The position numbers and the translations under genes were made by a program. DNA of 64,000 nt, taken from contig CAJNDT010006005.1 of assembly GCA_905221615.1 (NCBI GenBank), positions 318,501-382,500 of the forward strand. Direction: 5' to 3'. The DNA comes from Symbiodinium sp. CCMP2592. Lineage: Eukaryota > Sar > Dinophyceae > Suessiales > Symbiodiniaceae. The notes below the pieces were generated by a model. The model was given only the letters and a program-made list of their open reading frames with translations, searched no databases and had not been told where the DNA came from. Of this stretch, positions 43,881-64,000 are shown piece after piece; position 1 is the first letter of the stretch, and every line of letters begins with the position of its first letter.

Positions 43881-44395
43881 ATTTTTCAATTGAACGCTGC
43901 GCGAGCGTGCTCTGCGCTTTGCGGGCGCCTTTGGTCTCGTGCACTCGTGAAACTGCTTCTAGCATGCATCGTTCATACCTCTCTAATCAGCTCAAACTTG
44001 AAAGACTACAGCTACAAAAGCTTCCTCCTCCGACACCTTGGAGTGAACAGACGCGTCCATCTGTGCACCTGTCACAACAAGTAGGCCGTACCTCAGACGA
44101 AGCCGACACCTGGAGTATCCGTCTTGTGGCGTCCCACACGGATTACTCATGTTGAAGACAGAAGGCCGTAAGGGTCATATGCCCATGACCGGATGTACCT
44201 GAAAGCAACTCCGATGGAGTGAGGCTGTGGGCAGCTTGGACGTGGGCAGCCCTCTGGTGCAGCGAAGTGCTCTTTTAAGCAAGGTTAGCTCGCGGTTCAC
44301 AGGCTTCCGAAGAGATTTGCTAAGCGTCAGAAGAGTGCCGAATTCCCAGAGTCTGTGACATAAGGGATCAAAGAGTCTGTGACATATCTCTACCC
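43881..44395 (-). other. 3' untranslated region of unit B
   Basis: From the last stop codon (44396) to the terminal CAGCGTTCAATTGAAAA. Near the stop it carries two GTCACAGAC motifs (plus strand gtctgtgac at 44351 and 44375). No coding signal. Confidence 0.7.
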
Positions 44396-47300
44396 TCACT
44401 GGTCATGACCTTTCGGCCACTGCTGAGAGTAACTGTGCCAGGACCACTGCTGCCACCAATCCCAGTCGTCTTCTTGAGAGGAGCGTGCCTGCCTGGCCCA
44501 CTGGGTCGAGGATGAAGAGGAGGGGCCATCGCGCTGTCGCTTGCCCTCTGTGTCAGCCTCTTGCATCTGTGGGCGCTTGTTAGGGGCAGCAGCAGCCAGT
44601 TTGGCCATGCGCTTGTCTTCCTCGTGCCCCTTGTCATGCTGAATCCGCATCTTCATGATGGAGTAGGCATTTTTGTCGGGTTTGACCCTGAAGACACGAG
44701 CTGGGAGTCCGGCTGATTTGGCCGTCTCATTGTAGACTGCCACGATGGTGGTGGCGATCATGTTGAACTCGACCCACGAGGGGAAGTGCTGCTGAAAGGC
44801 CTTCTCGTCCCACATCTTGTTGAAGCAGGCATGGATAAGGCCATGCACCTTTGTGGGGGCATCCAGCTCACGATAGGCTCCTCCCGCGCCTGTGGCTATA
44901 GTGACCTTCCCATCGCTGGTGAGGACCCGCCTCACCGACATGGCGGTGTCCCATGTGAGGCCTGTTTGTGTCCTTACCGACTTGATGGCAGAGAACAGCG
45001 GGGGAACTTCGCGGAGTGCGTCCATCCTGGTAGACCAGAGGGTCTGTTGCTCATGGTTGGTGAGACCGCCGAGAATGACCGGAGCCACCAGGATATTCAT
45101 GGAAGCCAAGGCCCGAATCCAGTCCTGGTGGGACTGGGAGCTCAGCAGTTGAGCCAGCTCCTGCCGCGTGTATCGTACTGTCTGTGGTGGAGCCGGCTGT
45201 GGAACATAGCCGACGGGTTCCGCATTGGTTTCCGGAGGCTCATATGCTGACGGGGGACGGGAGGAAGGAGGAGGGGGCGTGTGGGAACGCGGAGCGGCCT
45301 GGGTGGCAGGGGCAGGGGAAGAGGCGGACTTGGGAGGGTGCGGAGGGATCGGGGAAACAGGGATAGCCGGTGGGGGAGCAGGTGCTGCCGAGGAGGAATT
45401 TTCCGGAGGCTGAGGGCACGGGGTGGGCACCATGGACGGTGGGGCCTTAGCCGGAAGCGCTGGGGCCGCCTTCGGTGCTTCCGCCTGGCTTGCCTTGAAA
45501 GCCGCCTTTTCAGCCGCTGAGGAAGTGAAGGGGCACGGGGGGGAAGGCGGCGGCTCAAAGCCGGCTGCTTTGTCTGTTCCTTTGGTCCTGGTACTGCTGG
45601 GGGGAAGAGGAATCTCCTGTGGGTGCTTTGGGGGAGGGGGAGGAAGAGGTGTGTGGGATGCCGACAAGGCGCTTGGTGCCGCAGGTTGTGACACCGGGTC
45701 ATGCTTCTGCGTGACAAAGTGGTTTTTGAGGCCGTGGCCAGTACTGAACTGGATCTGTCGGTTATGCTTCCGGCAGTGGAGGCAGCACAGCCACATGGAT
45801 CCTGATACTTCCATTTGTCCCAAGCCGCGGGGGATGAGCTCCAGCACATCCTGCTCTGTAAGATCTTGGTTATAGTGATGGGTCTCACGGACTGTGGCCA
45901 TGAGCGCCGCAAAGGAGTTGTGCTGGATGCTGTCTGCCACATAGGTTTCAATATCCTCCTGAGTAGGAGGAGGAGGAGCTGATGTGGCGGTTGCCGTGGT
46001 CTGTGACCTAAGTGGCTGAGGTAAGCTGTGCTCTTCAGGTCTATCAGACTGGATTTCCAGGGAGATGTCGGGTAGCTGGCTCTGCAGCATGCGATCGGTT
46101 CGTTCTTTGGTAGTGGGGTCTCCCTGAAAGCCCTTCATCCACTTCCAGCACCTGGTGTAGGCGACTGTCGTGTTGTTGGCTGTCACAAAGTAGTGGCCGT
46201 CGTTGTCGTACTTTTTGTTTCTTCACGCGCTTGTCCCAACGCTCCGAGAACAGGTAGATGGGGCCAAACTTGGCGGAAACATTCCAGCCCGCTTGAGGGG
46301 AATGACCAAGGTCTCGACTCAAGATCTGCCAGAGAAATTTGCAGAAGATCATGTATTCCAGGTTCGCCTTCGCTGTCATAACCTGACGGCTGAAGGCGTG
46401 CTGTATGGCCTCCCTCATCAAAGAGTGTCTGGGCTTGCCATAGATGATGCCTTGAAAGATGTGATCTCCTTTGACTCCAATGGCCATGACCATGAACTCC
46501 TTTGGGAGTTGGCCAGGTGGGGAGGGTCTGTGACCCACTTCACCTGCCTTCGTTGAGTGAGCTGTGCTCCAATCTGCTGCCAGAAGCTTCAGTACCTGTT
46601 CCCAGGGTACCACAAAGCCACATTTGATATCGACATAGAGGCCGCCGTGCTGGTAGTGGTAGACGTAGCGGAACACGTCAGCTCTATGAGCAGGTTGACT
46701 GAGGCGGTCCAGCAGATTGGAGCCGTACTTTCCGGCAAGTTGCCGCAGGGTAGCCCGAAGGATACCATCATCACAGAATTTGCGGGTGAAGCCTGCAAAC
46801 ATTTTGGCCGCAACTTGGGCTGGCTCCGGCTTGTCGTCGTGGACATAGGTCTGGAAGAGGAGGGCCGGGACGGGGGCGGCCTCCCATTCTGGGAGATGCA
46901 TGAAGCGCATACCCCAGGGGCCATGTCCGTACTGCATGGCAACCTCCGAAAGATCTCGGACAGTTCGGCATTGTGAAAGAGCCTGGGCAGCAAGCATTTC
47001 GACATGCATGTCCTGCTGGCGAGCATTCCAGCCAGCAACCACGAGGACAGGCAGTCCTGGGGTGTTGCGCATTTCCTCAATGGCTCTTGTGACAAGTGCC
47101 GGGATGACGATGTCCGCAACATCGGGGCGGAAGTGGAGATTCTTGGAGTTGTAGAGCCATTCTACCCCTCCTACACCAGGCATCTGTGCCAAATCCATGA
47201 TTTCCTGATTTGGCAGGTTTTTGTCCGCAAAACCATATTGGACCCTGCCGTCTATCAGGTAGTCATAATTGACTTGCTTCTCCGGGCGCAAGCTTCTTGA

Positions 47301-47597
47301 CAGCGGAATGAAGCGAACATTAATTTGTCCGTCAAGGTGGCTCTCCAAAATGGAGGCCACCGGCTGACTCTGAACCGCCGCCTTGAATTTGTGCGGCCCA
47401 AAGAGGCCAAATTGCCAGTGGAGGAGCTCCATGATGGAGGGGACGCTGCTAGCAGAAATGTTGAGGGCGGCGCCTGGACAGCTTAAGACCTGTCCCGTCA
47501 GCAGTGGGAACACTCCGTACGTATGTCCCCGCAGCATGTGCTGCAAGGTGCTATCGCTGAGCACCAGAAAGGGTCCCAAACTTGGAGGGGTGTCCAT
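44396..47597 (-). CDS. SGNH-like / GT32 glycosyltransferase / zinc finger / capsid-like polyprotein of unit B, one frameshift
   Basis: ATG at 47597. The N-terminal part (FLVLSDSTLQHML, VLVVAGWNAR) resembles SGNH hydrolases. Residues about 250-460 match the GT32 DXD-type glycosyltransferase fold (LLFQTYVHDD, RADVFRYVYHYQHGGLYVDI). The DXD motif reads DIK (Asp323). The frame then breaks at the T5 run 46212-46216; removing one base joins KKQK to YDNDGHYF and the second frame to 44396. That part has a C2H2-like finger (CLHCRKH...H), a long Pro/Ala/Ser-rich linker, then a globular domain (LGGLTNHEQQTLW, FNKMWDEKAF, KMRIQHDKG) shared with unit A, and a charged tail. I guess a capsid or RNA-binding role for the last domain; it is unproven. 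Confidence 0.7.
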
Positions 47598-48097
47598 GGT
47601 CTCAGCTTTAGCTGATGGGCCAGAGTCTGTGACACGCGGCCAAGAGGTGAGCTGTGCTCTTCGCGGAGTCGCAGTTTGTTCTGAAGTCTTAGCTTCTGCA
47701 AGGCATGTCTGTAGAGCAAGCTGCTGTACTTCTGCTGCTGCCTACGGTATCGACAGTTCGAACTGACAGCTGCGGTATGCATGCACAGCATTACAGAGTC
47801 TTATGACCAAGCATGAAGCTCAGGGCAACGCAGGACGACTGGAGTCATAGAACACCAGCAGAGGGCACGCGAGCAAGGACTGCTGGTGCCATGTGGTAGC
47901 TGGGGCCTCGGATTGCAGGATAGAGCAATCGATGATGCAGCAGTAGCTGGGTTCAGGCATGCTGCAAAATCAATTTCTCATGGCAGGTGGACGACACATC
48001 TCGGACTGTGACTAGTTGGGTGGCTGTGCCACACCTTGTCGGAGGCTGTGCCATATTCCTAGCATGAGTCGGTGACATCCCTGTGGCTCACAAGTGC
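47598..48097 (-). other. Spacer of unit B between F-box-like ORF3 and the glycosyltransferase gene
   Basis: About 500 bases without a convincing frame. It contains the 48020-48032 palindrome, a second GGCACAGCC at 48044-48052 and a 4-bp version at 47649-47659. Confidence 0.6.
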
Positions 48098-48730
48098 TCA
48101 AAGGAGACTGTAGTAGTGGTCATATAGAACACGGTGATCCTCTTCGCCTTTGCTGATTGTTGCTGCTTGCCCGTCTTGGTTGAGGGGGTTCAGGAACTTC
48201 TGCACCACGACGTGCTTGCTGTGCTGAATGTGGAGGGTGAGCTCTTCAGACGCGAGGTGCCACTGGGGCGTGTCATAGGACTGGACCATGACGCGTAGGT
48301 CAAGAGTCATTGCTGCCCTGGCCGTGCGGTAAGGACTTACAAAGAGCTTGTGCTGAACCAGGGGGAGCACTGCTGCGCACCAGGTTCTGCTAACCGACGC
48401 CATTGAAATGGCCGTCAGCAAGTCTGGTTGCAGTATCGCCAGCCTGACATGAACGCCCTGCTGGTCGTAGTCCGTGTCAACGTACCGTTGCACGAAGACA
48501 GCTAGGCCATCATATGGGCGGCGGGAGGCCCAGAGGCGTGCTTGCTCCTGGATCTCGTCCCTGAGCTGCAGTATGGGAATGAGAGTGCTGGGGGGCCTAT
48601 ATGCAGCGATTTCAGTTTCCAGCATTTCCCTGTCCAGACCGGAGTCCGAGTAGAAATCCACAACGACCACTCCGGGAATGATGAAGGAGAGAGCACGGCG
48701 ACATGATTCGGTGCAGAGAGAGGATGACAT
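48098..48730 (-). CDS. F-box-like protein 3 of unit B
   Basis: ATG at 48730; 210 residues. Third of three adjacent related frames. The N-terminus has a hydrophobic SFIIPGVVVVDFYSD segment matching LLPGVLTLDSYDA in the second copy. The middle has GVHVRLAILQPDLLTAIS followed by MASVSRTWCAAVL, which follows the F-box helix pattern (L-x2-A-x-V-C-R-x-W). F-box proteins link substrates to SCF ubiquitin ligases, but the motif here is weak and the assignment is tentative. No leucine-rich, WD or Kelch repeats are visible. Confidence 0.5.
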   Translation of the reverse strand: MSSSLCTESCRRALSFIIPGVVVVDFYSDSGLDREMLETEIAAYRPPSTLIPILQLRDEIQEQARLWASRRPYDGLAVFVQRYVDTDYDQQGVHVRLAILQPDLLTAISMASVSRTWCAAVLPLVQHKLFVSPYRTARAAMTLDLRVMVQSYDTPQWHLASEELTLHIQHSKHVVVQKFLNPLNQDGQAATISKGEEDHRVLYDHYYSLL

Positions 48731-48914
48731 TCGCTATGGTTATGGCTGGACAGCTGAGAGCAAGCCGAGAAATGACTGCGGAGAATCCTACCTTGAGCTC
48801 TGACCAGTGAGCCGCAACGCTGAGCCGCAACGCTGAACGGATTTGCCTTTTGAAGGAGAAAATCGGCGCGTCTCATGGTCTGTGACCAAGTGGCTGGAGG
48901 CTGTGCCATCTGAC

Positions 48915-49427
48915 CTAAAGAGGGCGACGCAAGACAGAGGTCGGAATGAAGTTCACCTGCTCATAGTGGACGCTGATGGCCTCTCTCGAAAGGGTGCCAG
49001 CTTGATCCGGCAGAACTTCAATGAACACTCCTGCTCCTTGCTTTCGCAGATGGATGTAGGCTCTCCACACCCCAATCCAGGGTTTGCCGTCTAGGAGACG
49101 AGCGATTTCGGAGTACCACGCACGGCAGACCGCCGCAAGCGGTATAGCCTGTAGCAGATTCAGATTGACAATGCCGAGCTGAGCATGCACGCCATTGTGG
49201 TCGATCCTGAGTGTGTCGCCGATAATGGAGTACTGCGAGAAGGGGCCCGTTCTAGCCCAACGTAGAAGTAGATCCCGTAGACGATCACGAGTTGCACGAG
49301 CTTCATCATGAAGCAGGTCCAGATCGTTCCAGTAGGAGGTGGGGTAGGGCGAGGCGTCGTAAGAGTCAAGAGTGAGTACCCCTGGTAGAAGATGTATCAT
49401 AGCGTGGCGCAGGGAGAGCCCATCCAT
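48915..49427 (-). CDS. F-box-like protein 2 of unit B
   Basis: I chose the ATG at 49427 because MDGLSLRHAMIHLLPG aligns with the starts of the two related frames; 170 residues. GVHAQLGIVNLNLLQAIP then LAAVCRAWYSEIARLL is the best F-box-like match of the three. A palindrome (48876-48888) follows 26 bases after its stop. The three frames are separated by about 180 bases each, suggesting tandem duplication of gene plus spacer. Confidence 0.55.
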   Translation of the reverse strand: MDGLSLRHAMIHLLPGVLTLDSYDASPYPTSYWNDLDLLHDEARATRDRLRDLLLRWARTGPFSQYSIIGDTLRIDHNGVHAQLGIVNLNLLQAIPLAAVCRAWYSEIARLLDGKPWIGVWRAYIHLRKQGAGVFIEVLPDQAGTLSREAISVHYEQVNFIPTSVLRRPL

Positions 49428-49607
49428 GGCGGTTAGCGAGTCTCTTAGAGCCAGCTGACAGAAAACTGGCAGGCAAGGGGCGTGCCGAGAAGTGAACACA
49501 ACTCAAAGCGCACGCTCTACGAACTTCGACTTGTACGGAGGATGCCCAGTTTTCAAGCCGAGAGCACTGTTGCTGGCTGCAAAAAGTTAGACACCTTAAT
49601 GGCACAT

Positions 49608-50267
49608 TTAGTCCTGTTGCTCGGTCTCATTCTGCAGGGCATCATAGCTGTCAAAGAGGAGCGCATGCCAGGCGTTGAAGCCCGAGGCGCGGTAAGCAGC
49701 GGCGGGAGCTGTGCGAGCCAGAGGTGAAGTGAGGTTCTCGACCGGCAATCTGAACGCCATCGAGACCGGGAGATAGAAAATGTCCTGGCCTTCGCGAACC
49801 GACACTGAGCCTGACTTGCGCAAACGTGACATTGCCACCAGAAGTTCCACTGTATTGATACGGGCTTGACCAGATATCATGGCTGATATGAGGTCATGCC
49901 AGACTCGATTAACAGTGGCAAGTCGTCGGACTTGTTTTAGACGCGGCTGCGTGACCTCGTAGACAAGATGCATGCCCGTCGAGTCCAGTGTGTCTGGCGC
50001 AGTTGGGGGGATGTAGGTGATGGAGAGGGCCGGCCAGTGATTGAAGCACTCTTGAAGAAGTTTCAGGAGGCCCGTTCTGGCTGCTGTCAGGCTATCCCTA
50101 CGAAAAGCAGCTTCGGTGGGGGTGAGGCCTGGTCCTGTAAGGCTGGACTGGCTGCTCGAGTCATCGATGGCTGTTCTGTCCAGGTCCGTCAGCTGCAAGT
50201 AGAAGTCGAGGCTTAGAAGCATCGGCGTCAGGAAGTGAAAGATTCGCTGGACGAAGGCGTCTTCCAT
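49608..50267 (-). CDS. F-box-like protein 1 of unit B
   Basis: ATG at 50267; 219 residues. The start MEDAFVQRIFHFLTPMLLSL aligns with the other two copies. GMHLVYEVTQPRLKQVR then LATVNRVWHDLIS gives the same F-box-like signature. It is the longest copy, with an extra C-terminal part (SGFNAWHALLFDSYDAL). There is no equivalent in unit A or E2. Confidence 0.5.
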   Translation of the reverse strand: MEDAFVQRIFHFLTPMLLSLDFYLQLTDLDRTAIDDSSSQSSLTGPGLTPTEAAFRRDSLTAARTGLLKLLQECFNHWPALSITYIPPTAPDTLDSTGMHLVYEVTQPRLKQVRRLATVNRVWHDLISAMISGQARINTVELLVAMSRLRKSGSVSVREGQDIFYLPVSMAFRLPVENLTSPLARTAPAAAYRASGFNAWHALLFDSYDALQNETEQQD

Positions 50268-50453
50268 CAGCACAGTCTAGCGAATGGAGGGCAGAGCCGA
50301 ACTTTAGAGCCTAGAAGGACTGAAGAATTGCAGTGACGTTGTCACAGCGGTGCAGAAACTACATGTGCTTGCGTACCTGCTTTAACCTCAAAATACGAGC
50401 AGAGATGGTCAGAGACTGTGTCTCAGCTCAAGAGGCTGTGCCATTCGCGCGAA

Positions 50454-51413
50454 CTAATCATCTGTGGTGCCTAGCGGAAGGCGAAAACCCAACTCAGTCA
50501 GGCGCTGTTGCAGCGTTGGTGAGAAACGAGAGACTCCTCTTACCGTGTAGGCCGCCAAAACGACCCGAGTATAGGTTTCCCATGGTAGAGTTGCATGCCA
50601 CAACGCATCCGCCCGGAAGAAGAGGCTGAGGCCACGAAGGTCAAAGCAGCTTCCCCGGATCATCCCCTGCTGGTGCGGGATCTCCTGGTAGTCGCAACCG
50701 TCAGGGTCTTCGATCCATATGCCGCCCTGGTCGCAAATTGAAATCGGGATGAGCAAAGTGCCCAAGGCTGCATTGCGAGCATCTTTATGCGGTGGGGAGT
50801 GCACATCTACCAAGACCTCGAGTGAAGTCCACTGGTGTTCTGGATGGCATGAGTACACGAAGGCGTTGAAGAGTCGAGTGACGTTGGGATGGGAAACCGT
50901 CTCCTTAAGCAGGCCAGGAAGAACTCGGCAGAAAGCCCCTACCCGAAATCGCTGGCCACATGAAGAGCCGGCCGCACGGGGAGTGCACTCCCATCTGTCG
51001 TGGGCTTCGAAAGGTAGGTACTGCAGAACCTGACGGACCGATGACCAGATGGAGAGACAGCGAGAAGTGATGCAGCTGCTGGCTATCTGCTCTGCCTTGG
51101 GTACCATGTGTGGCAATCCTCCGTGTGGGATGGGATTGACCAAGCAGCCTTCCTCTGCCTCGGAGCAGGTCATGGTAGTCATTGAATCGAGATATTTCTC
51201 GAATTGCTGCCACTGCAGGGGTGGGAGAGCTTTGTGTGCCCATGCCGTGATGTCATTGGAGGGCCATGTTCCCGCTGCCGGCGGCAGGGACACTTGGGCC
51301 TCCTCACAGTACAACTTCAGCGCCGAAAGAGTGAGGTAGTCCTCCATGTAATCTGCGAAGATCGCAGCGGGAAAGGAAATGGCCCGGATTGGGCCATCAT
51401 CCTCGCCAGCCAT
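50454..51413 (-). CDS. 2OG/Fe(II) oxygenase-like protein of unit B
   Basis: ATG at 51413 (MAGEDDGPIRAISF); 319 residues, uninterrupted. The conserved core is C-terminal: VDVHSPPHKDARN with the HxD metal pair, GGIWIEDPDG, the distal His in ALWHATLPW and Arg in YTRVVLAAYT. Equivalent cores occur in E2 (PPHKDMHN, LHATLPW) and unit A (LHTDKRG, RHLVLPW), so the metal ligands are kept across three diverged copies. Such enzymes hydroxylate proteins or nucleic acids; the substrate is unknown. It is followed by the first F-box-like frame after 186 bases. Confidence 0.75.
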   Translation of the reverse strand: MAGEDDGPIRAISFPAAIFADYMEDYLTLSALKLYCEEAQVSLPPAAGTWPSNDITAWAHKALPPLQWQQFEKYLDSMTTMTCSEAEEGCLVNPIPHGGLPHMVPKAEQIASSCITSRCLSIWSSVRQVLQYLPFEAHDRWECTPRAAGSSCGQRFRVGAFCRVLPGLLKETVSHPNVTRLFNAFVYSCHPEHQWTSLEVLVDVHSPPHKDARNAALGTLLIPISICDQGGIWIEDPDGCDYQEIPHQQGMIRGSCFDLRGLSLFFRADALWHATLPWETYTRVVLAAYTVRGVSRFSPTLQQRLTELGFRLPLGTTDD

Positions 51414-51675
51414 TTGCACTAGCGCAAGTGGTGAGCCGGTAACCGATACTAAGCCGAGCTCAAGCAAACGGTAGCTGGATAGTGCAGACAACTGCGCTCA
51501 AGACATATGCTCAGGTTTTTCTCGGGCTAAGGCCAGCGCTGTAGGCATTGGGACGGAGTCTGTGACTCAGGTAGCTTGGGACTGTGTCCTATTCCGCGAC
51601 GAAATGGTTACAGTAGCCGCGTGGCGGAGGCTGTGCCATATGCCGCTAGGGTGGACTGTGTCCTTCGATTGAAGC

Positions 51676-52892
51676 CTAGTCCATTTCCGCCCAAATGCCC
51701 TGCAGCTCAGTAGCCGGTGTCGAGGGCGCTGGCTCGTTCGAGCTGGCAGCCGGGGGAGGTGGTGGAGGCGGAGAATGCTCGAGGGGATTCTCCAGCATGA
51801 GGTAGCCATCCTGGTTGCTGTACTTTTGGTACGGCAGTACCTCTGTGTACATAGTCCGGATGTGGCTGCCCATGGTCCGGAGCCTGCAAGCTAGGAAGAA
51901 CCGAGCGTAAGCAGCAGATTCCTCCCAGCTACCGGAGTCAATAGAAGCCCGTGTTGGATCTTCTGGCCCAAAAAGCCCGGATGCGTTGGATTTTTGCTGC
52001 CTGGGGTAGGAGAAAACAGCGGTGGCCAGTCGAATATTGCCGGTTTCTTCGTACAAGCCGGCTTGCACTGTGATCGAGGGATCTATGGCAGTCTCGTACC
52101 AGCTTCCTCCGGGAAAGGCAGATTCTGGCCATTTGGGTGGAGTGAGGCCAGCGAGATTCTCCCATTCTGCCAGCTCGACGCGCAGGTGTTTGGGGAGCTT
52201 CGGGGGCATCGGGAAGCCCGACGCAGTGTTGCGCCAGCACTTGTTGCCCACAACTTCGACGGAGATCGTCTTGCTGAGCCGGTAGTAGTCGCCTCTGACG
52301 GTCCTGGTGGGACGCTCCATGAGCTCGTGAGGAGGACGATGAAGCACTCCTCCCTGGCCTATACGGCGCCCAAGCTAAGAGGATAGACACTTTCCCCCGC
52401 CGTACCTCCAAAATCGATCAAGACATAGGTGGGGGGGTCAAAGCGAACCATGATGTTGCCCATGTGGATGTCCGCGTGGACCAATTGGCTGGAATGCACT
52501 GCATTGAGGGCAGACCGGATGTCAGCCACGAGATTGACGACATGGTCCGTTGTCATGGAGGGGATATGGGCAGGGAACAGTCGTGGCAGTAACAGTGTTG
52601 GGCCTTGCTGCCAGAAAGCCTCGATGATGGTATTGATCGGCGGGAGGCGCGATAATCTGCTAAACTCTCGTCTGGCCATGTACTCTTCCTGCGGCCGCGT
52701 GACTTTCTTGAGCACAAAGTTTGCAGCACTGGAATTGAAGACCGCGCTGGCGTATCCCGTAGCGATGCTCTCGCCTGAAAGCTCTGGCGAGATGGCGGCC
52801 GTCACTTGGGGGTCGACTGGTCGTCGAAGTCCAGGCATGTGGCTCCGACCGAGAGCCTCATGCACTCCATCAGGATAGGGAGCACGATACAT
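51676..52892 (-). CDS. Protein-kinase-like ORF4 of unit B, one frameshift
   Basis: First ATG in frame at 52892 (MYRAPYPDG). Kinase elements in order: ATGYASAVF loop, NFVLKKV (ATP Lys), REFSRLSRLPP (helix C Glu), VHADIHMGNIMV (catalytic loop with HAD for HRD), LIDFGG (DFG). The frame then runs into TAG near 52359. One extra base at the G3/C3 run 52369-52371 would restore GQGGVLHRPP and the remainder to 51676 (GDYYRLSKTI). The aligned ORF in unit A is uninterrupted. It resembles atypical kinases with an HGDxHxxN-type loop more than classical Ser/Thr kinases. Confidence 0.7.
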
Positions 52893-53061
52893 CCCAGCGT
52901 GAGTGGGAGATATCGTCTGTGACGAATCCGTGCTGCACTGTGTGCTACCTGCCACTGGTAGCTTGAGCCCTGTGACCTAGTTACAAAGCAGCTGAGTGCA
53001 GATGCAGGAAAACGCATGGCAATTAGTTTTGCTCTCTGGTAGCTGGCTCCACCGGCAGTGC

Positions 53062-54978: not shown

Positions 54979-57900
54979 TCACTGGTGCCAGGAGCGGCTG
55001 TCACTGGCCCCTGAGTCCGAGCCACGATTCCACCACCCTCCTCGGGTCCAGGCATCGCCGTCTCTGTAGCGCTTGTCTGTGTGAGACTGTGTCTCTTCAC
55101 CAGAGCGCTTGTCTCGCTGTTCCCGCTGCTCACGTAGCTCGCGTTGGCGATGCCATTGGTATGTGGGCGTGTCGCCCTTGTTGTGTTCGATGCGGAGCTT
55201 GCGGACAACGTGTCCATCCCGAGGCTGGTAGAAGATGGCGCGATTTTGACCACCACTTTTCCTGGAGGACTGGTCATAGATGCACTTGAAGGTGGAGGCC
55301 ACGATCTCGAAGTTGTCATCCGTTTCGAGCAATGCGCTCATGTCCGGATGATCCCACATTTTCTGAAAAAGGGCGTGCACTATGCCATAGTAGGTCGTGG
55401 TGGACTTGAGCTCGGTGTAGCGATCATCTTGGCCAATGGATAGTGTGAATTGGCCATTGGCCCCGACCATAAGCCGCGCTTGCGTGATGTCAAGCCAGTT
55501 GGCATCCTTGTCGGTGGCGACCTTCTTGATCGGGGCGAAGATCCATGGCACCTTGCCCAGTGCTCGAAACCTATTGGTCCAAAGGTAGACCTGCTCAGAG
55601 GCCGTGAGGCCACCCACGATAGCCTGCTCCTTCATAATGGAAATGGTCGCAAAGGCATGGACCCACTCCAGCATCTGGTCAGACTGACAGATGTGGATAA
55701 TCTGATCTCTCTTTGGCAGTTGATTTGCCTCTTGCTCTGGAGAGGGGTTGACACTGTACTCCACCAGCTTGGTCGTGGTGACCGGTCCCTGGTATTTGAC
55801 CTCTGCACGCGTAGAGGGGGCATCCACAGGGGATGAGGCTGTGGTGTCAGCCGGGCCTGGGGTCTGTGGGACGGTCTCCTCGGTGGGGGCAGCTGTCGGA
55901 GTCACATTCTGGGTTGAGAATGCGTTGAAAGGCCGATCGCTTGTCTGGCCAGGGCCAGCAGACTTGTGTGACTGCGGTGTGCCCACCGGCAGCATCGGAG
56001 TGTCTGGCGTGCCCACAGTGTCTTCCGCCCATCCCAACGTGGGATCAGCAGTGACATGTGTCTCATCCTTGATGTCCGCCGGTTGGTCATTGACCCCCTG
56101 TTCTTCTTTCGCTGCAAGAGGCCGGTGGCCCTGCGCTTGTGGGGTAGGACCTGGCGGAATGGGAGGGAGACCGAGCCCAAAGCGTGCCTTAGACACCGAC
56201 GCTGTGGGTCTCCACTGGGGCGGACGGTCCGCCGTGGGTTCTGGTGGTGGCGGAGCCTGGCCTGACGCTGCAATGGCTGCAGCTGAGGGAGGGTTTGCTC
56301 GGCCGGGCGCTGCGACCACATACTGTTGCGAGGCGGGGGGCCTGGTGGCTCGGGCACTGATCGGTCGTGCCGGGATTGCATGAAGTGGTGTGTGACTCCC
56401 AACTCATTTGGGAACTTCAAGCGTCGGCCGCCGCGCTCGCAGTAGCGGCAGGAAAGCCAGTCAGGATCTTCAGGGTGAAGGCAGAGGCCTCGGGGGATGT
56501 TGCGAAGGACAGCCTCGGCCGAAATGCCGTGGTACTGCGGCTCCTTTTCGACCGCCGCCATGATCGCGTCGAAATCACCCCGTTCGAGGCTGCTGAGCAC
56601 GGTCTCGCCGACAACTCTGACGCCTGCATTGGTGAGCATTGCTCCCGCTCGTGCTGGATGGGGTGCTGCAGAGGCAGCGCCACCGGCTTCAATGACCTCC
56701 GAAACGATTTGGGGCACGCTCTGCATGAGAGAGTTTTCATTTCTTTGAGCTGCCCTGGGGTCGCCCTTGAAGCCTTTTCGCCAGCTCCAGCAGCGGGTGA
56801 ATGCTACTCGAACCTGACCGCGGGTCTCAAAGTAGTGACCATCAGACTCAAGCTCTTTGGACTTGGCGAGCTGAGTTGAATGTCGCTCGCGGAGCAAATA
56901 CACCGGTCCGAACTGTCGGGTCTGGTTCCATCCTGGCACTGGGGTGTGGCCCATGTCGTGCGTGAGGAGCTTCCAAAGTTCCTTGCAGAAGATCATGTAG
57001 TCCAGGTTGGCGACCGAGGCAAGTATTTGCCTGCTGAAAGCGTGATTGATAGCGCAGAGCATGAGGGGATGGCGCGGTTGTCCATAGATGATGCCCTGGA
57101 AAATGTGGTCATTTTTGACCCCAATGCCCATGATCATGTACTCCTTGGGCAGAACCCCCTCCACTCCATTTGGGCATTGCCCCAGCTCTTTGCTTTTGCG
57201 AACTTGGACATTGTCCCATTCTGAAGCGATGAGCCCTAAAATTTGATCGAAGGGCATTCTCAGCGCCATCTTGATGTCCAGGTACAGGCCACCATGAAAA
57301 TAGTGGTAGACGTATCTGAAGACATCAGCCTTGTGAGCAGGTTGCCTCAAGCTTTTGATCAAGTGTTCTCCGCTGTCTCCAGCGTGCACCTGAAGGGTCT
57401 CGAGTAAAACCTCGTCATTGCAGAAGGAGCGCTCGAAGTCAGCCAGGAATTCCTGGCACATGCTTTTGGGACCTGGGTGGTCATCGTGCATATATGTCTG
57501 AAAAAGAGTGCGGGGCATCGGCCGGCGACTGACGTAGGGTTCCAGGAAGGGCCTGAGGGCCCATGCCTTGCCCGTGTGTCGAGCAGCCACCGCACCCACC
57601 TCAGACAGTGTCTCCGAGCAGCACAGGTCAAATGTGGCGTTCATCTCCTTGTGGACATTGTCCCCGTGGCAATTCCATGAGCACACAACCAGAACATGGA
57701 TCGCATTTGGCTTCAGTCGCCGCATCGTTTGAATTGAGCGGGATACCAGTAAGCCAATGACCTGATCCGCCACCGTCGGACGAAAGTGACAGTTGTTTTG
57801 GTTGTATATTTGGTCAACCAGGGGAGGAGGGCCTTGGAGGCTCATGATGGTCTCATCACTGAGCTCGTACCGTCCCAGGCCATACTGGTCCCTGAGCTCC

Positions 57901-58283
57901 GCGATCCAGTCGTAGTTCGTCTGCTTATGGGGTAATAAGCTTTGTCTGATGGGGATCAGGCGCACACTAACTTCGTCATAGTAATGATCCCGGAGAAAAT
58001 TGATCAATGCAGGGCTTTCCGCCGGGAAAGGTCGCGTTTCTCCAAGGACGCGGATGAATTGCCAGGCCAGTACCTCCAACACCGCTGGGTTGGGTGGCTG
58101 CGCACCCGCGTACTCTGCTGTGAGAGTGGTACCCGGGCAGGAGATGACATAGCCGTGCATTGCACCCCGAACCATGTCAATGATTCCGTAGGATTGGCCA
58201 TTGGCCCCCTTCCAGAGCAAGTGTTGCAAGGTGCTGTCACTGAGCACCAAGAAGGGCTTCGGCGTGGTAGGTGTGGCTGCCAT
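54979..58283 (-). CDS. SGNH-like / GT32 glycosyltransferase / zinc finger / capsid-like polyprotein of unit A, one frameshift
   Basis: ATG at 58283 (MAATPTTPKPFLVLSDST). Parts as in unit B: SGNH-like start (FLVLSDSTLQHLL, VLVVCSWN), GT32 region (RTLFQTYMHDDHPG, KADVFRYVYHYFHGGLYLDI) where the DXD reads DIK (Asp336), then WNQTRQFGPVYLLRER, a C2H2-like finger (CRYCERGGRRLKF...H) and a Pro-rich linker. The frame breaks at the G6 run 56335-56340. Shifting one base continues through PPASQQYVV to the shared C-terminal domain (VGGLTASEQVYLW, FQKMWDHPDM, KLRIEHNKG) and a basic tail ending at 54979. The intact product would be about 1,100 residues. Acceptor and donor sugars are unknown. Confidence 0.72.
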
Positions 58284-58875
58284 GCCCGGTTGCCTGTGCT
58301 CTTTGAGCACCGCACCCTTACCAGGCTAGGGGAAGTTGAGGCTGTGAGGAGCTGCGCAGGAATGTCAGAACTGTAGCCTAGGGCAGAGCAAGCTGGAATA
58401 GTCGAAATTCTGGGCTTTGAGCCTTCTGCTTTGTATATTGTTATGCTTGATGCCTGCAGTGATCTTGAGCCCGGCAGCGCAGCAGGAAAGCTGCAAGTGC
58501 ATTCACGCTGAGGCAACGCTGCAGAGTGAGCTTGGCTTGTTCGAGTGGGCAGGGGCACTGGTCCGGCCATGCCAGAAGGTCGGCGTCAGCAGGGGCCGCC
58601 TGAGAGCATCATCGGACCTTAGAGCGAGATGCCGGCAGCAGTAGCAATAGACATGAGCGATCCGTGTGTCTCGCGCTGACAGATAAGAGCAGTGTGTGTC
58701 TGCTGTCTTTTCAGGTCACCAAGCCGCCAGGGGGGTGTCGGCAGCTGAGGCTGTTGGTCAAAATTGATTGAGCTAGTGGTGCTTCAGTCCTGCTCAGAGA
58801 GGGCGTGCAACAGCTTCCGTATTTGGAGCTGAAAGCCTGCTGGGCATTGCCCCCATGCCAGCGCATCGCTATACG
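58284..58875 (-). other. Spacer of unit A between oxygenase and glycosyltransferase genes
   Basis: No convincing frame. Unlike the corresponding region of unit B, which holds three F-box-like genes in 2.8 kb, this stretch is only 590 bases. Confidence 0.6.
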
Positions 58876-60163
58876 TCAGCTGTGCTGCCGTTGAAAGCTG
58901 GAGGAGCTTGTAGCTGTGCAACGTGCCTCGAAGCCTGTGTACTTCAGGTACAGAGCGGAATGCGCGGAGAGCTTGTCCGCATCTCGGATGTGGTAAGTAC
59001 CGAGTATGAGTCGGCGTCCCGTCCATGGCAGTACCAGGTGTCGGCGTGAGGCATCAAAACTAAGGTAGGGCAAGGTCACGGGGAGAACTTGTCCTCTGGG
59101 TCCGTCGGAGTCCAACAGGTAATCCCCGGCGCTGTCCTCCACGAAGAGGTGTCCGCCCTCGAATCTGGAGAGAGGGATCAGGATGTTGTTCACCCCTTTT
59201 GTCGGTATGCAAGCCAGAGGCCATATTTCGTGCCAGAAACAGTGTCGTGCGTGGATGGCGTCCGGCCATGGTGTGCACGACCGTGTTGAGGAGACACGTA
59301 GCCATCGGAAACCGATGCGTTGGTGTCCTCAGACCGGCCATTGGCCCCTGCTGGTAGGCGCCGAATGTGACAATCCGCTGGTCAGCAGACTGTGGCAGTG
59401 CCACCGATGCATGGCGACAGGCAGAGGTGGTAGGCATAATGTCCAGCAGGGCATCCAGTTGCTCGAAGGTGACCCACCTGCGATGTAGGTAGTCCGCTGC
59501 GGCCTGTTCGACTGCACAAAGGGTGAATTTGTGCTCCATTTCATCCATGTCAGGAGGGAGATGTAGGCATATGCCTGGTGCCTGCGCCTGTGGAGCGTAT
59601 AGGCTCAGGGCTGAAAAGATGGAGCCCTGTCGTTCCTCCTCTTGTGCCACGTCCTCGTCAGTAGTTGGAGAGGTCGACCGAAGGATGCTTTGAGCCGTTG
59701 GCATCGTGAGTGTCGGGCGACGGCATTTGCGTGCCGGTTCGGGGGCCTCCTCGTCAGATTCGTCTAGGTCCATGGGGATACATCCCGAGCTGCTACGGAG
59801 CCTCCACATCGCTAGGGGCAGCTGGTTGGCCTGAGCATTCAGACCATCTATCTGGGTCTGAGAGCCGACAAGTGTGAACAGGAATGATGGTATGAGAGGT
59901 TGATAGCCTAGTATCCGGTGGCAGATCCCAGCTGATGCGGCATTGGCGAAAGCAGCACTCTCTAACCGTCGCTCTGTTTCGATCCGAACTGCAACATGTG
60001 CAGCAGCGTCATCTGAAAGAGAAAGAGGCCGTGATGATGTACAGCGGCGTGTGAGCCGACAGGCTCGTGAAGAAAGGAGAAAAGAGTTGAGTACCGGCCG
60101 ATACAGCTCTAGCACGACATTGTCGCCATCAGGATGACATGTGCGGACATTGTCCCAGCTGCA
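58876..60163 (-). CDS. 2OG/Fe(II) oxygenase-like ORF5 of unit A, one frameshift, no own ATG
   Basis: In the same frame as the kinase ORF and separated from it only by the TAA at 60164; no ATG precedes the first 100 codons. The first part includes MDLDESDEEAPEPARKCRRP (acidic then basic) and GAYQQGPMAGL. After LHTDKRG the frame breaks at a CCCCTTTT run (59192-59199). Removing one base continues NNILIPLSRFEGGHLFVED, RRHLVLPWTGRRLILGTYH to the stop at 58876. The HxD, distal His and Arg are present. It could be made by readthrough of the TAA as a kinase-oxygenase fusion, from a spliced RNA, or have lost its start. In unit B it is a separate ATG-initiated gene. Confidence 0.6.
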
Positions 60164-61924
60164 TTAGGGCGGTGGGGGTGTCGGGAAGGGGCACTCTTCC
60201 AGGAAGCGATCTGGGTATGCCTGCATATCCCCCGCGACGCCACGCAGCAAGTCCGCGGCGGTGTGAAGGCTTCGAGACCAATCCTCGATGGTGGTTTTGC
60301 GAGATCCTGGTTTGGGTGTCCTTGCAAGATCTCGAGCCACGAAAGCACCGCCAGACTGGAGCATGTGGCCCTTGGTGTCGAAGGGGACATCGCTGCCTCC
60401 TGAGGCTGCCATCGCTCGGAATCTGGCGTTCGGGTCATAGACCGGAGCTTCCTTCATGACAATGTTAAAAGGAGGCGCTGATTCCGGTGGGTCCAAGGTA
60501 GCCTGCATGGGCTGGGGTGGGGGCTGGCGTGGGGCAGAAAAGGTCTGCGAGGGGTTTGGGTCCTCCTCAGGGAGGGCGGGAGGTTCTCCCCAGATGCCCG
60601 GCAGCACAGTAGCAGCACTTGGGGGGTCCCGCTGCGTATAGGATTCCCAGGGAAAGATCTCTTGGTATACATATCGGAGATGTCGGCCACAGGTCCTCAA
60701 TTCCGTAGACAGGTAGAACTTGGCCCAAACAGCAGATTTTTCCCAGGAGCCAAGACCAGGTGAAAGATCTGACGGATCTGGCTTTTCCGGAACCAGTGAG
60801 CCGTTGTTGTTGCCAAACTTGTCGTCTGATCTGACAAAGGTGGCGGTATCTGTCCGGAGTTCCCCGTTGGCTCTCCACAGGCCAGCATGCACGGTGACCG
60901 CGGGGTTAAAGGCTGAGTCCGTCCAGGAGCCAGCAGGGAAGGGGGAGCTGGGATAGATGGGCTGTGGCCATTGGTCCCGCTCCAGCCATAGCTGCAGTTC
61001 TCGCTTCATGTGGCTAGGAATTCCTCTGCTGACTCCGTCATTGACGCCGCTGCCCTTGCGTCGTTTGGTGGGCTCCTCATCCGACAGGAACTGTTTGAGG
61101 ATCGTTTGGCTCAGCCGATAGAAATCCCCATACGCCGTCCGGACTGGAGCAGGTGGAGCTTCTAGGGTTGGTGGACGATGTAGATCACCTCCATATCCCT
61201 TGGCGCCGTAGCCATTACTCAAGGGGTATATGGCCTCGCCCGAGCAGCCGCCATAGTCAATCAGTACGAAACTGGCCGGTTGGTGCCGGACCATGATGTT
61301 GTCCGCGTGCACGTCCCCATGAACGATTTGGGCTGAATGCAGCATCTGCAGTGCAGCCGCGATGTCGAATTTAAGTCGCTGGACTGTGTCCCCGGTGAGA
61401 GGACGGGGAGCTGACCAAAGGCGCGGCATGAGTGCCCGGGGGCCGTCTGCCGCGTAGATGGTGTTGATCACGGAGAGAGGCGGAAGTCTTGTAACTCGAT
61501 GCAATTCCTTCCGAAAGTCTGCCTCGTGCTCCACCTTGACCTGTTTGATGACAAAGTTGGGGTCCTCATGGGACAGGTGGACTGTGCTCGTGTAGCCTCT
61601 GCCCACTGTCTTGCCGACCGTGCCCTTCAGGAGACTGATGCAAGCGGCCGACGTGGGCCCCGCTAAGGTGCAGGGGGTAGGGACTCGTTGCACGGTTTGT
61701 GCGTGGTCCGTCATTGCTGCCACAATAGCCGTGGCCATGCGATGGGGGTCCTGGTCTAGACCCAATCGGATGTGAAGGCTGTCCAGGGCCGCAGTGTCAG
61801 AAGGAGCCGCCATGTGCGAAGCGGAATGGAGCGGCAGAGTGCCGGGCCTTTGACTTGATCCTTCTGTGTTTAGTCTCATGTACGCTAGCGCATTATGGAG
61901 GGTCTGACTGCCCTCAGCTTGCAT
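60164..61924 (-). CDS. Protein-kinase-like ORF4 of unit A
   Basis: ATG at 61924; 586 residues, open. Kinase motifs: glycine loop KTVGRGYTSTVHLS, VIKQVKV with Lys127, RKELHRVTRLPP (helix C), VHGDVHADNIMV with His202 and Asp204, LIDYGG with Asp223. The HGDxHxxN loop is like that of atypical and small-molecule kinases. After the kinase core come conserved segments (GDFYRLSQTIL, AGSWTDSAFNPAVTVHAGLW, YVYQEIFPWESYTQ) shared with unit B, then a Pro-rich tail ending FPTPPPP. Catalytic residues are intact, so activity is plausible. Target unknown. Confidence 0.8.
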   Translation of the reverse strand: MQAEGSQTLHNALAYMRLNTEGSSQRPGTLPLHSASHMAAPSDTAALDSLHIRLGLDQDPHRMATAIVAAMTDHAQTVQRVPTPCTLAGPTSAACISLLKGTVGKTVGRGYTSTVHLSHEDPNFVIKQVKVEHEADFRKELHRVTRLPPLSVINTIYAADGPRALMPRLWSAPRPLTGDTVQRLKFDIAAALQMLHSAQIVHGDVHADNIMVRHQPASFVLIDYGGCSGEAIYPLSNGYGAKGYGGDLHRPPTLEAPPAPVRTAYGDFYRLSQTILKQFLSDEEPTKRRKGSGVNDGVSRGIPSHMKRELQLWLERDQWPQPIYPSSPFPAGSWTDSAFNPAVTVHAGLWRANGELRTDTATFVRSDDKFGNNNGSLVPEKPDPSDLSPGLGSWEKSAVWAKFYLSTELRTCGRHLRYVYQEIFPWESYTQRDPPSAATVLPGIWGEPPALPEEDPNPSQTFSAPRQPPPQPMQATLDPPESAPPFNIVMKEAPVYDPNARFRAMAASGGSDVPFDTKGHMLQSGGAFVARDLARTPKPGSRKTTIEDWSRSLHTAADLLRGVAGDMQAYPDRFLEECPFPTPPPP

Positions 61925-62052
61925 TATTTATGAGCGATCCTGTAAGTTGCGAAACTTTTTCCATCCTAGCAGCGTGGTGCAGGAGGTCATTGACCACCTT
62001 CAGGGTAAGGGCCGCTCATTGTGCGCACCCGAGTCTCAGAATGGCATTGTCG

Positions 62053-62298
62053 CTATTTGTGGATCTTGTTCACCATGTTCTGGCGCTTCTTCGGTGAGCG
62101 AGGTGGCGTAGGTGGGCGTTGACGGCCCGACGGCAATGATGTAGCAGTGGGCTCTTTGGTCTGCACGGCCCGTTCCTTGTCGCCTGAGGTTGCCGAGGTC
62201 GCCACTGTTGTGGTAGATTTGTCCAGGCCAAGCTCGCGGATTTTATCCCATTGGGCAACGTAGTAGTCGAGATCAATGTGACTCTGCAGCCCTGGCAT
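62053..62298 (-). CDS. Small proline-rich ORF3 of unit A
   Basis: First ATG in frame at 62298; 81 residues. Ends with SGRQRPPTPPRSPKKRQN, matching unit B ORF3. The N-terminus (LQSHIDLDYYVAQWDKIREL) is helical-looking. Conserved position, unknown function. The 300-base spacer to ORF2 shows no other frame. Confidence 0.5.
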   Translation of the reverse strand: MPGLQSHIDLDYYVAQWDKIRELGLDKSTTTVATSATSGDKERAVQTKEPTATSLPSGRQRPPTPPRSPKKRQNMVNKIHK

Positions 62299-62616
62299 GT
62301 TGGGCGGCAACGAGGCTGGAAGGGACTCAGAATGCGATCTGGCAATTGGAAAGGCTGCGTGGCACGAAATAAGACGCTGCTTAGCACTTGCCTAACAATG
62401 GCAGATCGCTGCAATGATGGGAACACAGGCGCAAGATCAGTGCTTTTGCCACAGGCGTGGTTGCCTGGTTGCTTGTCATTGTGTACAGGAGTGATACAGC
62501 TTATGGCTGACAGTGCACTCCAGGAACAGGCAGAAGCGAGCATTGCTCCTGCGAAAGATAGAGATTGTTCTAATTGAGCCAGGCCGTGTCCAGCTGCTGC
62601 CATTGGCACCTCTCCT

Positions 62617-63300
62617 TCAGCCAGCTTTGCCCCTCGCCTTACGAGCCAGGCCACCCGGGGCCTTTTTTCCGAGGCGTTCTCCTTCATAGGAGTCCAGGAG
62701 GGCCGCAATCAGCGAGGTGTACTGCGCAAGCGGGGAGTGGAGAACCGGTCGGAAATCCAAGATAAGGTGCGTCTTGAGAGCGTTCTGTCGAGCCGAGCAG
62801 TGCGCGACCAGATGAATCACAGCCTCATGCGGCGATTCGCCGAAGTCCTCGATCAGCTTGATGAAGGCCTTGAACTGTGCAGTGTCAATGCCTGGTGGCT
62901 TTTGTTGAGACTGGGCCAGCTGGACGAGCATTGCTCCCGCTGTGAAGTGTGCACATGAACCCAGTGGGTGCGCTTTCCCTGGCGTGTGGCCTTTCTGCCA
63001 CGCGGCCACGGCCTTTGCTAGGGCCTGTGCCAGGGGGGCGTCCGTGGGTAGCTTGTACACCAGCGAGGCCTGGAGTTGTAGTAGGGCAAGCTGTTCTTCA
63101 TGTAGTAGGAAGCCTTGAGTGAGCTCGGCGTTGGAAAGGGCGTGCAGGGCCCTGCCTGGCCGCTGCTTGCCGCTGCCGGTCGCTTGGCGTCGAGCATCGA
63201 CACCAAAAGACTCTGACGGTTCGCCCATCAGTGAATCTGAAGCTAGGGGAGATGTGGTGCGACCACGTTTGTGGTCTGGGCTGTGGATCTTGTCAGCCAT
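62617..63300 (-). CDS. Gag-like ORF2 of unit A
   Basis: ATG at 63300; 227 residues. Acidic/basic N-terminus (MADKIHSPDHKRGRTTSPLA), core GFLLHEEQLALLQLQASLVY and HCSARQNALKTHLILDF, and a basic end KKAPGGLARKARGKAG. Its first 50 codons are nearly identical to the E1 remnant (11337-11029). It lies 183 bases after the USP stop; that spacer contains a hairpin shared with E1. Confidence 0.7.
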   Translation of the reverse strand: MADKIHSPDHKRGRTTSPLASDSLMGEPSESFGVDARRQATGSGKQRPGRALHALSNAELTQGFLLHEEQLALLQLQASLVYKLPTDAPLAQALAKAVAAWQKGHTPGKAHPLGSCAHFTAGAMLVQLAQSQQKPPGIDTAQFKAFIKLIEDFGESPHEAVIHLVAHCSARQNALKTHLILDFRPVLHSPLAQYTSLIAALLDSYEGERLGKKAPGGLARKARGKAG

Positions 63301-63483
63301 GCTGGGTCAGCCTGAAAAAGCTGCGGGTAAGCCTGCGCATGCCTAAAGCATGCTTGGCCTTGACGTGGGGGGGGCCATGCCCACCTATTGTGGGGTCCGG
63401 CCTTCCCACGCACAGGCACCCTAGTGGTGCACGCATTCCTAGACTGGGAGGGCCAGCACTCACCCCTTGAGGGTGAGTCAGAG

Positions 63484-64000
63484 TCACTCCTGTCTTCTCA
63501 AGAAAAGGAGGTAACAATCTTCCAAAACATGTTTGCGTTCTGAGGTCGAGGCGAGATGTGGGTTGGTGGCATCATCACCAACGTATAGCGCACCTCCATG
63601 CGGATGGATCCAGAAAGACCGGTAATGGCCTGAGTGGATTTCCGCTCCTACATGAAAAACCCCCGAAATGACTGAAAAGTGGTGCCACTGGCGGTCCTGA
63701 CCTTCCGTCCAAGTCGGCAGTGAGACTTGCCTGCGCAGGTCAATCGGGGTGCGTCGTTTGGTGCCGTCCATCCATCGAGCAACTGTGACGGGCAGGATGT
63801 CTGGGGCCCATGCCAGGGCGCGTTGGAACATGTGGTTGTACCATGCCATGCAGGCCTGCTGCAGTGAACGACAGTCCGAGGAAAGAGGTAGCAGCAGCGG
63901 CGTAAGGCCATCGTCTTCGCTTTCTGGCAGTCCATTAGTACGTCCCTCCCAGCGCACGGGTTGTAGGGTTCCGGTGTGATGTTCTAGCAGACTCGTGACA
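63484..64000 (-). CDS. C-terminal end of the EN-RT-ZnF-USP polyprotein of unit A (partial)
   Basis: Open to the window edge. Reads EGRTNGLPESEDDGLTPLLL, then VISGVFHVGAEIHSGHYRSF (USP His box) and GGALYVGDDATNPHLAS to the stop LRRQE, closely matching the last 170 residues of E1 (about 90% by eye). The RT, endonuclease and catalytic Cys lie beyond the window. Confidence 0.9.
   Translation of the reverse strand, partial: VTSLLEHHTGTLQPVRWEGRTNGLPESEDDGLTPLLLPLSSDCRSLQQACMAWYNHMFQRALAWAPDILPVTVARWMDGTKRRTPIDLRRQVSLPTWTEGQDRQWHHFSVISGVFHVGAEIHSGHYRSFWIHPHGGALYVGDDATNPHLASTSERKHVLEDCYLLFLRRQE

Follow-up and report, generated by a model that had tools for sequence, protein, structure and literature searches.

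Giant APE-type LINEs of Symbiodinium very probably inherit their enzyme genes as one unit

Elements and GTA arrays in the window

The window analysed here, 64,000 nucleotides of the 1.1 Gb genome of the dinoflagellate Symbiodinium sp. CCMP2592, contains a series of retroelement units separated by (GTA)n arrays, all of them on the minus strand. The arrays lie between Units B and A (54336..54554), between Unit A and E2 (43754..43881), after E2 (34907..35403), before E1 (16749..16852), and after E1 (10602..10738). Rfam and tRNA scans of the whole window returned nothing.

E1 (10741..16749) is a complete element of 6,009 bp that carries no cargo, and its ORF2 (11523..16463) is a 1,647-aa open frame coding for an APE endonuclease, a reverse transcriptase (RT) with the motif YADD, zinc fingers, and a USP domain. 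E2 (35404..43751, ends approximate) is a related LINE of another lineage whose ORF2 (38395..43551) has the same domains, with FADD in the RT. In Pfam searches Exo_endo_phos and RVT_1 score above cut-off in the ORF2 of both E1 and E2, placing the APE and RT domains in one ORF, and UCH does so as well; the motifs GNTCYVN/GNLCFMN and GHYR are present, which we take to be the Cys and His boxes of a USP deubiquitinase. ORF2 also matches the LINE-1 ORF2 in the PDB. The cargo of E2 is restricted to ORF3 (37263..38411) and a 2OG-Fe(II)-oxygenase-like protein with a weak Tet_JBP match (35876..36607), in agreement with the shorter series first read from the sequence alone; its ORF3 is weakly similar to those of Units A and B (17-23%), and in P0090 an ORF3 likewise follows an RT.

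Unit B (54556..64000, continuing to ~68199 outside the window) is a 5'-truncated, RT-bearing copy of a giant LINE of ~13.6 kb. The window holds the C-terminal end of its ORF2 (63487..63999; the USP region, 82% identical to E1), and the remainder was traced in the genome back to amino acid 81 in E1 numbering, at approximately window position 68199, where it abuts a (TAC)n array. ORF2 is followed by the small protein ORF3 (62620..63306), a kinase-like protein (60167..61927) in a frame of 587 aa (660 aa elsewhere), a 2OG-Fe(II)-oxygenase-like protein split between the overlapping frames 59063-60163 and 58879-59328 (together 58879..60163), and a GT32 polyprotein, whose N-terminal part (55905..58325) is an 807-aa frame with its last ~130 aa apparently out of frame, and whose C-terminal part lies at 54982..56403.

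Unit A (43884..54332) is an older unit that carries cargo and keeps both ends of the element but lacks ORF2; the 5' end at ~54332 runs almost straight into ORF3 (53561..54301). The kinase-like protein (51679..52976) occupies two overlapping frames (52362-52976 and 51679-52374), and is followed by the oxygenase-like protein (50457..51497), by three further frames of 195-222 aa that are found only in this unit, two of them weakly alike and none of a known family (48101..50276), and by the N-terminal (46047..47741) and middle plus C-terminal (44399..46222) parts of the polyprotein.

The sequence-only reading had Units A and B carrying the same ordered series of frames after ORF2. The shared order and homology of ORF3, kinase, oxygenase, and glycosyltransferase (GT) hold, but because Unit A has no ORF2 its series cannot be said to follow one. 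With the same gene order on the same minus strand, the ORF3 proteins are 41% identical, the two kinase frames of Unit A (52362-52976 and 51679-52374) are 45% and 36% identical to the kinase of Unit B, the GT parts of the polyprotein (46047-47741 and 55905-58325) are 44% identical over 475 aa (E 1e-134), and its later parts (44399-46222 and 54982-56403) are 28-30% identical. The two oxygenases give no direct mutual match at E<=1e-3. Each of them matches that of E2 (35876-36607), at 29% for the Unit A frame and at 38% and 31% for Unit B frames 59063-60163 and 58879-59328, and an unbroken B-type oxygenase copy from elsewhere in the genome matches that of Unit A directly (29%, E 5e-9).

Complete elements, target sites and deletion derivatives

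The complete form of the element is ~14.4 kb long and is represented by copies C1207 and C3124, both inserted into (GTA)n repeats and flanked by them. Its genes run in the order ORF2, ORF3, kinase-like, 2OG-Fe(II)-oxygenase-like, and GT32 polyprotein, with the APE endonuclease, RT, and zinc fingers of ORF2 followed by a USP-type deubiquitinase domain at its C-terminus. No long terminal repeats were seen at the element ends.

GTA-rich sequence adjoins 19 of 22 5' ends (counted with L014-L018 and L034-L036 left out, and with L028 giving no 5' end), compared with 321 of 20,000 background windows. At C3124 and at L024, as read by eye, the repeat beyond the 3' end is a duplicate of the sequence flanking the 5' end, showing that the arrays are targets; the possibility that they are tails of the elements is ruled out at these two copies. 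The target duplication is readable in two copies only, because GTA repeats mask it elsewhere. Judged by its insertion into one type of repeat, this is a microsatellite-specific LINE.

E1 is a deletion derivative with many near-identical copies, and in copies of this type ORF2 begins ~286 nt inside the 5' end. Eighteen of 28 ORF2 matches, copies of E1, are at 100% rounded identity and have no kinase nearby, and there is no kinase within 10 kb at any of 21 E1-type loci. Since E1 multiplies without the cargo, insertion has no need of the cargo in cis. At the deletion junction there is a short CCAAC match but no clear splice signal, which rules out splicing as the origin of E1, and a known RNA at its 5' end is ruled out by the lack of any Rfam match at E<=1. 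E1 and Unit A appear to be internal-deletion forms, one without cargo and the other without ORF2, and either may borrow its missing products.

Linkage of the cargo to the RT and selection upon it

Across the genome, kinase and GT genes occur together, with the GT downstream at a near-constant distance, at 47 of 60 kinase loci and 47 of 56 GT loci; the partner is missing within 12 kb at the other 13 and nine, respectively. ORF2 is at its predicted upstream place in 27 of 28 sampled kinase loci, one slice lacking it, and at B-type ORF2 loci the kinase begins 1.55-1.67 kb after ORF2 in six out of six. The same order is tiled by automatic gene models of other Symbiodinium species, among the models listed (P0056 and later in one of the sets). 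In one set of matches behind the counts, each place is represented by its best non-overlapping match. The kinase therefore does not normally occur apart from the RT, nor is the gene order peculiar to this locus.

These counts contradict the idea that the genes are chance neighbours lying between LINEs, or the remnant of a DNA virus or a virus-like giant transposon beside a LINE, as do the complete units of RT plus cargo that many loci hold between GTA repeats. Giant viruses commonly encode GT32 proteins, and the set had been likened to a viral gene complement. This comparison is not supported: Pfam scans of 24 ORFs in and around the units show no gene for a capsid, DNA polymerase, integrase, or packaging function, and the hallmarks of Polintons and DNA viruses (DNA polymerase B, integrase, capsid, packaging) are thus absent from this set. 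Viral contigs gave nothing with the Unit B polyprotein and nothing confirmed with P0059; the E1 ORF2 found one weak locus (L001) and A6 found four with GT matches only, so that the five viral loci contain either a GT match or, at L001, none, and no other cargo. We consider a viral or chance origin to have almost no likelihood.

Elsewhere in the genome, many copies of the cargo frames are intact. The 660-aa kinase frame is without stops in 20 loci, the 1,116-aa GT polyprotein frame in 18, and the 431-aa oxygenase frame is unbroken in three of the four copies examined. With codons containing gaps or stops dropped, dN/dS is 0.10 for ORF2, 0.10 for the kinase, 0.00 for ORF3, and 0.13-0.14 for the GT; ORF3, kinase, GT, and the C-terminal domain together span 0.00-0.14, close to the value for ORF2. 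The third-position test used protein-guided alignments, which bias toward its result. The near-identical pair C1207 and C3124 differs by few changes, and where its dN/dS is defined and non-zero it ranges from 0.33 to 0.92. The spacer between ORF2 and ORF3 is 98.9% alike, above the coding parts, and selection on proteins alone does not account for this likeness. The oxygenase is less constrained than the other cargo genes (0.32-0.40).

The low dN/dS ratios also speak against the cargo being passengers, a host gene cluster that was captured once and brings its carrier little or no benefit. The young E1 copies that multiply without cargo would fit such a history, as would the broken state of cargo copies in the window, where the kinase of Unit A, the oxygenase of Unit B, and the polyproteins of both are split into overlapping pieces. 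However, the set has been kept in Units A and B despite identities of only 28-45%, and frames are unbroken in many near-identical copies, and we regard passenger status as very unlikely.

The order of the cargo with the RT, the element ends, the preference for (GTA)n, the target duplication at a full-size copy, the many copies, and the purifying selection on RT and cargo are all evident at the level of sequence. With ORF2 upstream in six of six and 27 of 28 cases, kinase and GT linked at 47 loci, and low dN/dS, the earlier proposal that the set is an inherited and selected part of a LINE-type element is borne out, and we are confident that the dinoflagellate harbours a family of giant APE-type LINEs whose cargo genes are inherited as one unit.

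Predicted activities of the cargo and related elements

The kinase-like protein retains HxDxxxxN and D[FY]G in both Units A and B, presumably the motifs of protein kinases, and looks like a protein kinase, although its Pkinase match (E 9e-7, 29.0 bits) falls under the Pfam cut-off of 31.7; the lysine of VIK is replaced by R in P0081 and P0051. The polyprotein has a GT-A fold with a DXD sugar-binding region, as expected of GT32. Among solved structures, the predicted fold of its relative P0004 best matches Och1, a mannosyltransferase of fungi that acts on N-glycans. An SGNH assignment for part of the polyprotein is not proven: an LSDST block is visible by eye, there is no Pfam match, and the fold lists, in which the GT domain takes up the places, contain no SGNH match. 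Neither the oxygenase profile nor the polyprotein profile found a sequence match in the PDB.

The exact family of the oxygenase, including the TET/JBP label, is likewise not proven. The only Pfam family it touches is Tet_JBP, below cut-off (E 0.003-0.02) and in two of five domain pieces, while five relatives all keep H, D, H, and R, the residues for Fe and 2OG. Both features would suit a cassette for DNA-base modification, in which a TET/JBP-type oxygenase makes or extends a modified base, the GT and kinase add further changes to it, and element DNA is thereby marked within a nucleus that contains much 5-hydroxymethyluracil, a base reported as abundant in dinoflagellates (PMC11071213). Against this, the Tet_JBP match is sub-threshold, no PDB sequence matches, the AlphaFold2 model of the oxygenase relative P0001, aligned with the Unit A and E2 oxygenases (three sequences), has a pLDDT of 35.5, and both the affinity of the GT with Och1 and that of the kinase with protein kinases point away from bases. 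We think such a cassette improbable.

For the family as a LINE with selected cargo, we suggest that the element would spread as one unit, copied through RNA in the manner of human LINE-1. A long RNA, or trans-spliced mRNAs, would be made from the element, and ORF2 would nick a GTA repeat and reverse-transcribe the element RNA there. Acting in trans, the cargo enzymes could target host proteins or the element nucleoprotein, with the USP domain stripping ubiquitin marks, and so reduce silencing by the host or improve access to chromatin; we offer this anti-silencing role tentatively, as one that may well prove wrong. Bolder, and in our estimation unlikely, is that the lineage is a selfish genome of virus size with its own pathway of protein or base modification (deubiquitinase, kinase, oxygenase, and glycosyltransferase) that rewrites dinoflagellate chromatin, with RT-only E1 and cargo-only Unit A complementing each other in trans as a divided retroelement system.

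LINEs are mostly compact, and one of ~14.4 kb that seeks GTA microsatellites and has selected enzyme genes besides its polymerase widens the range of what a LINE can carry. Some of the enzyme-like genes that are annotated in multiple copies in Symbiodinium genomes may be accounted for by such elements. It also becomes testable why a kinase, an oxygenase-like enzyme, a glycosyltransferase, and a deubiquitinase persist in a LINE, and whether derivatives free of cargo depend on full elements. In the literature searched, with subscription papers mostly outside it, we recognised no description of such an arrangement.

As far as the published accounts describe them, several known elements share some of these features. 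SymbioLINE-Dnmt elements are LINEs of the same host group that carry one additional enzyme gene kept by purifying selection, a DNA methyltransferase in an ORF upstream of the RT (PMC5890265), whereas here there is no sizeable upstream ORF, the unit ORFs scanned with Pfam contain no methyltransferase, and several genes lie downstream of ORF2. The terminons of bdelloid rotifers are giant elements too (up to 40 kb), code for an RT, carry genes for accessory enzymes, and form head-to-tail arrays (PMC6431247), but they are Penelope-like, endonuclease-deficient, and located at telomeric repeats, rather than APE-bearing and in GTA arrays, and their genes differ (DEDDy exonuclease, GDSL esterase, Rep, and others). 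The non-LTR elements Utopia, NeSL, and Togen also insert specifically into repeats or microsatellites, and some have a ubiquitin-like-protease-type domain (a Ulp1-like protease; PMC4640811); theirs is a restriction-like nuclease, in contrast to the APE nuclease, (GTA)n target, C-terminal USP-type domain in ORF2, and large cargo seen here. The ORF3-bearing retrotransposons of bdelloid rotifers are LTR elements with one extra ORF (PMC5408684), and differ in this respect, but they too illustrate accessory genes shared between classes of retroelement: the oxygenase family described here is also present in an RT-RNaseH element.

Cargo genes in the window and in complete elements

The window (C5143:318501-382500; the assembly searched comprises 1.098 Gb in 5,383 contigs) carries on its - strand a head-to-tail series of LINE-type units, B, then A, then E2, with E1 lying separately, and each of its five (TAC)n arrays lies at an element border. 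Units A and B share ORF3 and the kinase-like, 2OG-Fe(II)-oxygenase-like and GT32 polyprotein genes in identical order, as the sequence-only reading had proposed. Its placement of this series after ORF2 is correct for B, whose ORF2 extends beyond base 64000 with 87% identity to E1 and can be followed back to aa 81, where it meets a GTA array, and incorrect for Unit A, which has both a 5' end and a 3' end and no ORF2. Element B therefore carries the RT, lacks its 5' extremity and measures about 13.6 kb. E2 has the shorter series that had been described, but retains ORF3 as well as the oxygenase. Third codon positions are the most divergent in all ten pairs compared, using protein-guided alignments, which favour that outcome. 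Only Unit A contains three small frames between the oxygenase and GT (48101-50276); two are weakly alike (23%), and none has a Pfam match or a relative among the proteins fetched.

Contigs C1207 and C3124 each contain, consecutively, a 5' end, ORF2 (1,649 aa), ORF3, kinase, oxygenase, GT and the C-terminal part. GTA arrays flank C1207's element on either side; that in C3124 has a GTA array before it and GTA/GCA-type repeats after. The cargo of each contains breaks particular to that copy. Lengths could be measured for 11 of 13 copies tried (C3124 and ten E1-like copies); C3124's is 14,359 bp from end motif to end motif, and C1207's, in which the 3' motif differs, is ~14.4 kb up to its GTA array.

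Co-occurrence of reverse transcriptase and cargo

Searches of the assembly gave 60 merged kinase loci (118 rows; 74 of 909 candidates scored) and 56 GT loci (58 rows; 56 of 1,197 scored), counts that are lower bounds. Kinase and GT lie on one strand within 12 kb at 47 loci (median distance 3,831 bp), so the order of the set is not unique to the window, and 13 kinase and 9 GT loci have no partner within that distance. Thirty-three kinase rows match from residue 1. The window, C5329 and C4983 were set aside because their ORF2 was already known, and C664 and C3602 because they are short; the remaining 28 form a sample biased towards long matches. In 27 of the 28, a 401-bp slice at the expected RT-motif site codes for ORF2 on the kinase strand at 96-99% identity, with YADD in 26 of the 27 (L058 covers aa 149-281); the slice at L063 contains no ORF2 at the predicted place. 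All six ORF2 rows at 87-88% to E1 are cargo-bearing, and the kinase lies 1.55-1.67 kb downstream of ORF2 at six of six B-type loci; none of 21 E1-type loci has a kinase within 10 kb. Among the loci sampled, the kinase is not normally found apart from the RT.

Those protein relatives retrieved with an organism name attached are from Symbiodinium and, together with the spliced-leader core described below, mark the source of the window as a dinoflagellate. Five automatic gene models together tile a single gene order: P0081 (S. microadriaticum; EN-RT-USP remains-ORF3-kinase), P0051 (S. necroappetens; ORF3-kinase-oxygenase-start of polyprotein), P0019 (S. microadriaticum; oxygenase-polyprotein), P0069 (S. 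microadriaticum; EN-RT-ORF3) and P0090 (CCMP2592; RT and E2-type ORF3). In contig C975 a different element, about 8.8 kb of it, splits an E1 copy (L014:5457-10000, L015:1-4290); its 1,277-aa frame combines an oxygenase-like portion with weak matches to RT and RNase H. Because this oxygenase belongs to the same family (35% to that of E2), the gene seems to move from one class of retroelement to another, as is described for other ORFs in rotifers (PMC5408684).

Selection and protein domains

Comparisons of B with C1207 and C3124, which are >99% alike and in effect a single comparison, give dN/dS values of 0.10 for ORF2, 0.00 for ORF3, 0.10 for the kinase, 0.36-0.40 and 0.32-0.35 for two parts of the oxygenase, 0.13-0.14 for GT and 0.09-0.10 for the C-terminal part. 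Between C1207 and C3124 the changes are few and the ratios, where defined and non-zero, are 0.33-0.92, a pattern that fits copies which decay once they have inserted. The oxygenase-GT spacer is the least alike between B and these copies (86%). The ORF2-ORF3 spacer (63300-63486) is 98.9% identical, exceeding the coding parts, perhaps reflecting a control signal or recent exchange. Stop-free frames of 660 aa (kinase) and 1,116 aa (GT) occur elsewhere in the genome at at least 20 and at least 18 loci respectively, and the oxygenase frame is 431 aa in three of four copies inspected.

ORF2 of E1 (11523-16463, - strand) and of E2 (38395-43551, - strand) encodes APE endonuclease, RT and UCH/USP domains, all above Pfam cut-offs, and C2H2-like fingers scoring below; the RT motif is YADD in E1 and FADD in E2. 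Both end in a USP-type deubiquitinase domain whose Cys and His boxes look active. Among cargo identities GT32 is the best founded, with fold evidence taken from P0004, a relative. Motifs of the kinase are clear, but it scores below Pfam cut-offs; the oxygenase matches Tet_JBP weakly, with H, D, H and R invariant across five relatives. The putative SGNH part was recognized by eye only.

The cargo-less form and GTA repeats

E1 (10741-16749, - strand) aligns with B at 87% as far as B 63128, resumes at 80% from B 54960, and on this alignment is a B-type element minus about 8.2 kb. In the fetched 10-kb stretches, matches in E1-type copies are confined to ORF2 and the beginning of ORF3; seven of ten E1-like copies measured are 6,009 bp, the others 5,983, 5,994 and 6,212 bp. 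A search with E1 ORF2 gave 28 scored rows from 4,579 candidates; identity rounds to 100% in 18 of the 28, and 16 of those 18 span the full 1,647 aa, the window copy included. Because of this identity and of ends that are exact within GTA repeats (window 10741-16749; L007-L012, L019-L025), the subfamily looks very young.

At the 23 loci examined we located 22 5' ends, one of which (in L013) is that of an oppositely turned neighbour. At least eight GTA occur in the 60 bases preceding 19 of the 22, a level reached by 321 of 20,000 random 60-mers drawn from sequences including the GTA arrays; at least eight GTN follow 11 of 15 3' ends within 60 bases. Two of the three 5' exceptions (L008 and L022) adjoin another element's 3' end, and tandem stacking therefore recurs.

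The cargo and ORF2 form one DNA unit, present in many copies, with a target preference and under selection. A long RNA would be made from the element and reverse transcribed by target priming at GTA repeats. Since E1 multiplies without cargo, its presence in cis is not required for insertion; the cargo may act in trans, aiding the element against host control.

An exact copy of CCATTTTGGCTCAAG, the 15-base core of the dinoflagellate spliced leader, lies on the - strand at 10513-10527, separated from the E1 insertion by 75 bases, and 8513-8527 holds a similar one; the 21-base leader was not found in the window with up to three mismatches allowed. A GC-rich stretch contains an inverted repeat (26436-26500 and 28791-28855) with 65-nt arms, 88% complementary and 2.3 kb apart.
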